A stretch of DNA of 40,166 bases from Candidatus Methanomethylophilaceae archaeon (GTDB lineage: Archaea; Thermoplasmatota; Thermoplasmata; Methanomassiliicoccales; Methanomethylophilaceae). The position numbers were made by a program, and so were the translations under genes. Under the pieces are notes generated by a model. The model was not told the origin of the DNA. It ran no database searches and was given only the letters and a program-made list of their open reading frames with translations. The DNA lies in assembly GCA_017524805.1 (NCBI GenBank), contig JAFXUX010000021.1, positions 1 to 40,166 of the forward strand, written 5' to 3'. This document shows positions 11,015 to 12,172 of the stretch, piece after piece. Every line of letters starts with the position of its first letter. The stretch's first letter is position 1.

Positions 11015-11027
11015 AACGCTAAGCGTT
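11015..11027. promoter_or_regulatory. Palindrome AACGCT-A-AGCGTT (operator or leader hairpin)
   Basis: A perfect 13-bp palindrome in the predicted leader, about 22 nt before the RHH gene start. Compact palindromes like this are typical RHH operators; in RNA it could only form a weak hairpin. Confidence 0.4.
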
Positions 11028-11048: not shown

Positions 11049-11417
11049 TTGACGGATGACGGAATGAAGATCACAATCAGGGTGGGTCCCGATGAGATAC
11101 AGCTCATCGAAGACTACATGGATCAGTTCCACGTTGGGAACAGATCTGACTTCATCCGCGATGCCATCAGAGGCTACATAAACTTCAGAAGAAACGAAAC
11201 GGGATCCACCAGCAACTCGGATGTCGGGGGAATATTCATCCACCTCAGCGATCTGCATCTGGAGATTCTCGCCAACCTTAAGAAGATGGGCATTTGCCTG
11301 TCTGAAGAGGAATTCATCAGGAAATGCGTCATCGACGCCATAATGCCCAAAGAAGCAGAGAACAAAGCCATCGACGAAGCTTTCGCTTCAGCTCAAAGTT
11401 CGACCACATACAGATGA
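11049..11417 (+). CDS. Tandem ribbon-helix-helix regulator (CdrS-like context)
   Basis: 122-aa putative DNA-binding regulator. Residues about 6-45 form a classic RHH unit: strand MKITIRVG, helix DEIQLIEDYMDQF, turn, helix SDFIRDAIRGYI. Residues about 62-100 look like a second unit (strand GIFIHLS, helix DLHLEILANLKKMG, helix SEEEFIRKCVIDAI), so one chain may carry two RHH units. The start is TTG 11049 or ATG 11064. The gene overlaps the FtsZ-family gene downstream by ATGA. In haloarchaea the short RHH regulator CdrS is co-transcribed with ftsZ2 and controls cell division; the same pairing here suggests a related role, which is inference from gene order and fold. Confidence 0.8.
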   Translation: MTDDGMKITIRVGPDEIQLIEDYMDQFHVGNRSDFIRDAIRGYINFRRNETGSTSNSDVGGIFIHLSDLHLEILANLKKMGICLSEEEFIRKCVIDAIMPKEAENKAIDEAFASAQSSTTYR

Positions 11418-12172
11418 AGGGAAAGCAGATGGAAAACGACTCCAACCTAGTAAACGACTTGAAAAGAAGGGATGCACTCATGACGGCGAACGAAAATGGC
11501 AGCACGGATTGCCCGCGCATAGCTGTGGTTGGCGTTGGAGGAGCGGGATGCAACGTCATCTCCTCTTTCAGTGGAAGGGAATGCCAAGTGGATACCATAG
11601 CTATAAACACGGACAGAAAGGCTCTCGAAAAGACCGAAGCAGACAAGAAAATCTACATCTGCAAAGAGGTCCTCAAGGGAGAAGGCACGCGCGGAGACGC
11701 CAACCTCGGCAAAAAGTGCGCTGAATGCCACATAGAAGAGATCAGGGATGCTCTCTTCGGATACGAATACGTGTTTGTCGTCGCCGGCCTTGGCGGGGGA
11801 ACGGGCAGCGGCGCCATGCCGATAGTCATCGATTCGGCGGCTATCGGCGGCGCGGAAACATCTGCGATAGCGATCAAGCCTTTCTTCTTTGAAGGGGAGA
11901 GGAAAGAGCTTGCGGCAAAGGCCTACAGACGCGTGCAAGCCGTATGCAGGAACTCTTGCCTGGTCGACAACAACCTGATCATGTCGCTGGAAGAGGATTG
12001 CGATCTGAACACCGCATTCTCGAAGGTGAACGAAGGCATCGTAGATCACATAGCTGAGTTCGCGAAATCCGTCGAAATCAACTCCCCGAGCAAGAAACGC
12101 ATTTCAGACATCAAACCCAGCAGAACCGAAAGAACAGGCATCATACCCTTGGGCCTGCTCGTATGCGCTTGA
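11414..12172 (+). CDS. FtsZ-family GTP-binding domain protein lacking T7 loop and C-terminal domain
   Basis: 252-aa tubulin/FtsZ homologue. It keeps the nucleotide-binding half: VVGVGGAGCNV at residues 38-48, AINTDRKALE, GEGTRGDANLGKK, and the tubulin signature AGLGGGTGSG at 124-133, then IKPFFFEGERK. It ends soon after the helix that in FtsZ leads into the T7 loop; the catalytic N-x-D-x-x-D loop and the entire C-terminal domain are absent, replaced by a short basic tail (SPSKKRISDIKPSRTER). Normal FtsZ has about 350-400 residues. No downstream frame continues the fold, so this is not an obvious frameshift. Starts at ATG 11414 (overlapping the RHH stop) or ATG 11429. It may cap or regulate true FtsZ filaments. 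Confidence 0.85.
   Translation: MKGKQMENDSNLVNDLKRRDALMTANENGSTDCPRIAVVGVGGAGCNVISSFSGRECQVDTIAINTDRKALEKTEADKKIYICKEVLKGEGTRGDANLGKKCAECHIEEIRDALFGYEYVFVVAGLGGGTGSGAMPIVIDSAAIGGAETSAIAIKPFFFEGERKELAAKAYRRVQAVCRNSCLVDNNLIMSLEEDCDLNTAFSKVNEGIVDHIAEFAKSVEINSPSKKRISDIKPSRTERTGIIPLGLLVCA

Follow-up and report, generated by a model that had tools for sequence, protein, structure and literature searches.

A tandem ribbon-helix-helix gene paired with a GTPase-domain-only relative of FtsZ in archaea with an apparent family-wide loss of the Z-ring

Nearly all euryarchaea are taken to divide by means of FtsZ, for which SepF is the anchor; MciZ and SulA bind the ends of FtsZ filaments although they are unrelated to FtsZ in sequence. 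In haloarchaea and other archaea, the cdrS-ftsZ2 operon places an RHH (ribbon-helix-helix) gene next to a full-length FtsZ2 (PMC7439475, PMC8406309), and Pende et al. reported ftsZ2 near parD and SepF following FtsZ (PMC8178401). The FtsZ superfamily also holds two divergent families, FtsZl1 and FtsZl2 (Makarova and Koonin 2010, PMC2875224); in FtsZl1 the polymer-forming parts are altered or missing, the T6-H7 region is absent, and the protein carries a coiled coil and an unrelated helical C-terminal domain (PMC2875224). Here we analyzed a 40,166-nucleotide stretch of archaeal DNA (the window) that carries a tandem-RHH gene together with a gene for an FtsZ relative made of the GTPase domain only, which we call FtsZ-deltaC (Table 1). 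As contig C21, the window comes from a 1.95-Mb genome of 98% completeness in family f1, which we take to be the Methanomethylophilaceae. The survey covered genomes of the class Thermoplasmata; many of those compared are MAGs, and claims of absence rest on the complete ones among them. The matching loci include MAGs labelled Methanomassiliicoccaceae archaeon and Candidatus Methanoplasma.

Table 1. Positions of the features of the RHH and FtsZ-deltaC locus in the window.
Feature	Position	Strand	Remarks
Tandem RHH protein gene	11049..11417	+	122 aa, TTG start; N-terminal unit CdrS/NikR-like, second unit (about aa 60-110) ParD-like
FtsZ-deltaC, GTPase-domain-only FtsZ relative	11414..12172	+	252 aa from ATG 11414; 230 aa from the ATG 11480 favoured by comparison
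GGGATGCAC element	11469..11477	+	directly 5' of the probable true start, ATG 11480; same element in most family loci
T1 nucleotide loop GVGGAGC	11531..11551	+	G42 and G43 invariant; G40, A44 and G45 near-invariant (56 sequences)
T4 tubulin signature GLGGGTGSG	11786..11812	+	G127, G128 and G131 invariant; G125, G129, T130 and G133 near-invariant (56 sequences)
Core helix H7, last folded element	12005..12082	+	AlphaFold2 residues 198-223; the T7 loop would come next in FtsZ
Low-confidence tail	12083..12169	+	29 aa, AlphaFold2; ends in a short genus-level peptide

An earlier note on this DNA had described an FtsZ-family protein that keeps its nucleotide-binding motifs and is cut before the T7 loop, and both parts of that description held. 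The profile of the tubulin/FtsZ GTPase domain (PF00091) matched FtsZ-deltaC with 99.6 bits against a cut-off of 33, and the T1 and T4 loops were conserved across 56 sequences. The FtsZ model TIGR00065, however, aligned over positions 15-205 of 353 only and scored 151.9 bits, below its cut-off of 295.2; a profile extending over the C-terminal domain (CTD) ended here at position 186, and the profile match to PDB structures stopped just short of the FtsZ T7 region. No motif resembling the catalytic NxDxxD of the T7 loop was present in any of the 56 sequences, the CTD was absent, and the FtsZ_C profile (PF12327) was unmatched anywhere in the genome of the window. The AlphaFold2 model built on the 56-sequence alignment showed a confident and complete GTPase fold and the whole of helix H7, followed by a disordered or low-confidence tail, and Foldseek placed it on FtsZ with an rmsd of 1.3-1.5 Å across about 185-190 residues, the GTPase domain and H7 superposing in the structural comparison that the earlier note had called for. 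Thus, the FtsZ-deltaC chain ends at the H7/T7 boundary, and the T7 loop and CTD are missing. The tail closes with a peptide of the type P-[IL]-x-x-L-[IM]-[SN]-A, predicted as a short helix, that is similar inside the genus and not beyond it. A CTD supplied by a split gene was rejected because FtsZ_C found no match and the sole CTD-bearing relative in the genome is a T7-less paralogue on contig C27.

The product of the upstream reading frame scored above the cut-off of RHH_1 (PF01402) in a Pfam search. When a profile of 49 homologues was compared with known structures, its first half matched NikR (E 1.6e-4) and its second half independently matched ParD-type antitoxins (E 6.6e-5), so that both halves match RHH structures and the two RHH units, proposed at the outset for this protein, are therefore real. 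The match to the CdrS equivalog model NF058555 was weak, at 20.9 bits against a cut-off of 100. A short palindrome, AACGCTAAGCGTT, lies at 11015-11027, 5' of the RHH start in the window, and may be an operator or a chance occurrence.

The two genes had been thought to be translationally coupled, since ATG 11414 overlaps the RHH stop codon (ATGA). Comparison with relatives did not bear this idea out: in family loci the RHH gene and FtsZ-deltaC are separated by roughly 60-110 nt, most of these loci start FtsZ-deltaC between 0 and a few bases after the conserved GGGATGCAC, and the overlap is not conserved. Starting at ATG 11480 gives MTANENGSTDCPRIAVVGVGG, a 62-nt spacer and a protein comparable in length to many of its relatives (226-240 aa). 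The true start is probably ATG 11480, and coupling by the ATGA overlap is probably incidental. Loci of genus g10 (L045, L046, L098, L099) have a conserved 52-aa reading frame (MD.E.LE.H.KALEALRS...) placed after the RHH gene and before FtsZ-deltaC.

Many f1 loci share the element AAGGGATGGGA, found both in the RHH leader (L048, L086, L101, L090, L093, L051, L049, L087, L088 and others) and in the RHH-FtsZ spacer (L139-L158), and the spacer of sister and other class families carries GAAGGGATGGGATGCAC. In the leader, the arms on either side of AAGGGATGGGA pair with each other while their sequence varies from species to species, the pattern of an RNA hairpin; the element had no Rfam match. We rejected it as an operator for the RHH protein, because its variable self-complementary flanks point to RNA and not to a palindromic operator, and because the window has no leader copy. 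Genomes across the class hold about one copy each of a related 21-nt sequence, AGAAGGGATGGGATGCACTCT; of nine genomes searched, most had a single locus (L198-L206), and the sequence was exact in eight. In the window's genome it lies at G000:C9:7101-7121, where it adjoins the SRP54 gene in divergent orientation, an arrangement thus seen in at least one f1 genome. AGAAGGGATGGGATGCACTCT lies in the loop of a hairpin whose arms differ but are complementary, found no Rfam match either, and may be a small RNA or protein-binding element not described before.

A dedicated profile found FtsZ-deltaC in 43 of the 45 f1 genomes that are at least 90% complete, the two exceptions holding a trace match only (G005) and a fragment (G088), and the tandem-RHH gene was 5' of FtsZ-deltaC in every one of 45 f1 loci inspected. 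The search for short FtsZ homologues beside RHH genes that the earlier note had suggested recovered the pair in 14 families of the class Thermoplasmata, comprising, beyond f1, families f2-f6 of the same order and f7, f9, f16, f18, f19, f23, f25 and f31 elsewhere in the class; the RHH gene accompanied FtsZ-deltaC at 19 of 20 loci from the 13 other families, and the locus without it was the second copy of a genome that has two. In the other-family genomes examined, FtsZ-deltaC coexists with several full-length FtsZs. Across eleven close pairs the dN/dS of FtsZ-deltaC was 0.08-0.28, mostly about 0.1, and by this measure the protein is under purifying selection. In a tree of the GTPase domain, the FtsZ-deltaC copies of the window's family grouped with the truncated copies of sister families (support 0.97); the deep branches were weakly supported, and a single origin of the truncated copies across the class is not proven. 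The prevalence, the RHH pairing and the dN/dS bear out the idea of a genuine conserved module, and because the truncated form occupies essentially the whole family it is not a recent frameshift or assembly error.

We also asked which other FtsZ proteins these genomes contain. TIGR00065 matched something in 96 of 102 f1 genomes and exceeded its FtsZ cut-off in none of the 102; FtsZ was above the cut-off in 251 of 349 genomes of the class, and all five sister families, f2-f6, have full-length FtsZ (E-values 1e-116 to 1e-132). Profile searches found no full-length, T7-bearing FtsZ in the window's genome or in f1. In the sister families, one full-length FtsZ with an intact T7 loop of the NLDF type comes with a tandem-RHH gene (103-113 aa) of its own and has a TrmJ-like methyltransferase as neighbour, and by this gene content the TrmJ-linked locus is the one that matches cdrS-ftsZ2. 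Genus g10 of f1 keeps TrmJ and the RHH gene at this locus, but its T7 reads VSVGMSKL; two of its loci (L043 in G081:C21 and L044 in G084:C67) are intermediates in which a near full-length FtsZ with altered T7 stands with the RHH gene, and G081 still gives a SepF match (E 3e-13). The TrmJ- and rpl12-linked gene of other f1 genera has lost both the T7 segment and the RHH gene, and its CTD is still recognisable. Most f1 genomes carry a divergent FtsZ relative of about 270-300 aa directly after rpl12 and next to a TrmJ-like methyltransferase gene (L002/L064 in G000:C27, and L065-L082), in which the CTD is present, the T7 segment is deleted (consensus GPFFSTF..K.YT) and the NLDF motif is missing; the model of one rpl12/TrmJ-linked protein shows the complete FtsZ fold, CTD included, at a TM-score of about 0.80 against FtsZ. 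Judged from these loci, the cdrS-ftsZ2 locus is ancestral and decayed stepwise in f1. FtsZ-deltaC itself was rejected as the decayed FtsZ2, because sister families have it alongside intact FtsZs and because it groups in the tree with their truncated copies, the decayed ftsZ2 being the rpl12/TrmJ-linked gene.

The CTD-bearing relative was found in 37 of 45 near-complete f1 genomes, nearly all of which also have FtsZ-deltaC. In six f1 genomes that are 92-99% complete (G001, G060, G087, G091, G093 and G094), FtsZ-deltaC is present with no CTD-bearing relative detected and is the only FtsZ relative detected. SepF was strong in all sister-family genomes; in the window's genus, none of the 17 near-complete genomes gave a match, and most other f1 genera had a weak match or none. 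A Snf7 search for ESCRT-III as the replacement came up empty across 54 genomes of the order, but its sensitivity is low: among the controls the model found only Sulfolobus, and that below its cut-off. Altogether these gene inventories point to an apparent family-wide loss of the Z-ring in f1. Elsewhere, one sister-family genome encodes a full-length FtsZ with an in-frame TAG (G209:C5:91587-92567), which is possibly read through because the order uses pyrrolysine. Further genomes of the class (family f29, genera g74, g77 and g85) had no FtsZ match at all, in agreement with the published absence of FtsZ from Picrophilus, Acidiplasma and Ferroplasma.

What FtsZ-deltaC does in such cells can be proposed from its gene partner, its fold and its distribution. 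The role we favour, and consider quite possible though somewhat short of probable, is that of a GTP-binding partner of its RHH regulator; we prefer it because the RHH pairing is strict, the nucleotide pocket is intact, and FtsZ-deltaC persists where canonical FtsZ has been lost and even, in some genomes, where no CTD-bearing relative can be detected any more. The two genes would then form an ancient Thermoplasmata operon of a tandem-RHH transcription factor and an FtsZ-derived GTP-binding protein no longer able to form protofilaments. FtsZ-deltaC would act as a monomeric, GTP/GDP-dependent partner that senses nucleotide or growth state and alters the binding of the RHH protein to DNA, and the pair would thereby set division or growth genes and would neither build nor cap a filament. 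Against this, genes in one operon need not act on each other, a role directed at FtsZ is possible in most families, where full-length FtsZs are present, and a CTD-bearing partner could be too diverged for detection or lie in assembly gaps. More tentative still is the wider proposition that f1 lost the FtsZ ring (no T7-bearing FtsZ, SepF lost or degenerate, no ESCRT-III detected) and keeps an ancient, non-polymerising, FtsZ-derived GTP switch partnered with a transcription factor. If true, a cytoskeletal GTPase would have been turned into a gene regulator in cells dividing by a mechanism yet to be found.

The earlier note had instead proposed filament capping. In a fuller form of this reading, FtsZ-deltaC would be a GTP-dependent end-cap or assembly inhibitor: its GTP face would dock on a terminal full-length FtsZ, at the T7/CTD face of that subunit, and it would leave no T7 face for the next one, with the RHH protein setting its dose, much as MciZ or SulA work but built from FtsZ itself. 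The half that is kept is indeed the GTP-binding half, whose face contacts the T7 side of a neighbour, and several full-length FtsZs coexist with it in the families examined outside f1. However, FtsZ-deltaC stays conserved in f1, which has no T7-competent FtsZ to cap, and in six f1 genomes even a CTD-bearing relative went undetected. Because f1 lacks canonical FtsZ and FtsZ-deltaC is the sole FtsZ relative in those six genomes, capping is unlikely as its general role. With no full-length, T7-bearing FtsZ found in the window's genome or in f1, an outcome that the earlier note had itself listed as refuting, capping of the host's full FtsZ filaments cannot operate there, and the truncation and the RHH pairing stand; in other class families with full-length FtsZs, capping may still apply.

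A slightly smaller chance falls to a two-part FtsZ substitute in f1, in which FtsZ-deltaC and the T7-less, CTD-bearing relative beside rpl12 would act together in division as a heterodimer or short heteropolymer. The frequent co-occurrence of the two genes and the full FtsZ fold modelled for the second protein, though it lacks the NLDF of T7, fit such a pairing, whereas the six genomes with FtsZ-deltaC and no detected second protein do not, and FtsZ-deltaC is older than the decay of the second gene, given that it stands beside intact FtsZ in sister families. It is improbable, in turn, that FtsZ-deltaC acts through its tail in division or membrane positioning, say as an adaptor switched by GTP, with no need of filaments or of the RHH protein: the C-terminal peptide is conserved at genus level and predicted as a short helix, but from one genus to another the RHH pairing is conserved and the tail is not. 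Finally, the reading as a pseudogene, a frameshift, an assembly error or a normal ftsZ cut short recently, for which the shortness of the protein is the sole argument, can be dismissed with near certainty, as the same length recurs in dozens of species, single-contig genomes included, the dN/dS is about 0.1, and no CTD remnant exists downstream or elsewhere.

The f1 group contains human-gut and rumen methanogens, and its retention of a half-length FtsZ relative, though every working full-length FtsZ is gone, raises questions about cell division in this group and about the task of the half protein. If f1 is truly without a polymerising FtsZ, its division machinery is still to be identified, which is directly testable, and the module offers a natural experiment on which FtsZ functions need a filament. 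Surveys of presence and absence that count FtsZ matches may moreover score the GTPase-only protein as FtsZ.

Among known systems, the cdrS-ftsZ2 operon is the one to which the locus had initially been likened, and as in that operon a small RHH gene immediately precedes a gene of the FtsZ family in the same orientation (45 of 45 f1 loci and 19 of 20 others). In contrast to cdrS-ftsZ2, the RHH protein here has two units and falls below the CdrS cut-off, and FtsZ-deltaC lacks the T7 loop and CTD of a full-length FtsZ2. TrmJ lies beside the locus of the second paralogue and, in sister families, beside the full-length FtsZ with its own RHH gene, and was at none of the FtsZ-deltaC loci scanned. By gene order, the RHH-FtsZ-deltaC pair is an operon separate from cdrS-ftsZ2, which the likening had missed: that operon is the TrmJ-linked locus of the sister families, decayed in f1. 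FtsZ-deltaC shares with canonical FtsZ (FtsZ1/FtsZ2) the superposing GTPase domain and H7 and the nucleotide loops, but lacks the T7 loop, the CTD and the SepF-binding tail at the C terminus and scores below the TIGR00065 cut-off. Like FtsZl1 and FtsZl2 it is a divergent protein of the FtsZ superfamily; unlike FtsZl1 it keeps H7, has no extra domain, is at most 252 aa long and is closest to FtsZ itself. A capping FtsZ-deltaC would resemble MciZ and SulA in binding the T7/CTD face of the terminal subunit, but it derives from FtsZ and has no target FtsZ in f1. A search of papers outside subscription, including those on Methanomassiliicoccales and the FtsZ family, found no published description of the pair. 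Thus, the pairing of an RHH protein with a GTPase-only FtsZ appears to be a new, cdrS-ftsZ-like variant, joined in f1 by an apparent family-wide loss of the Z-ring.
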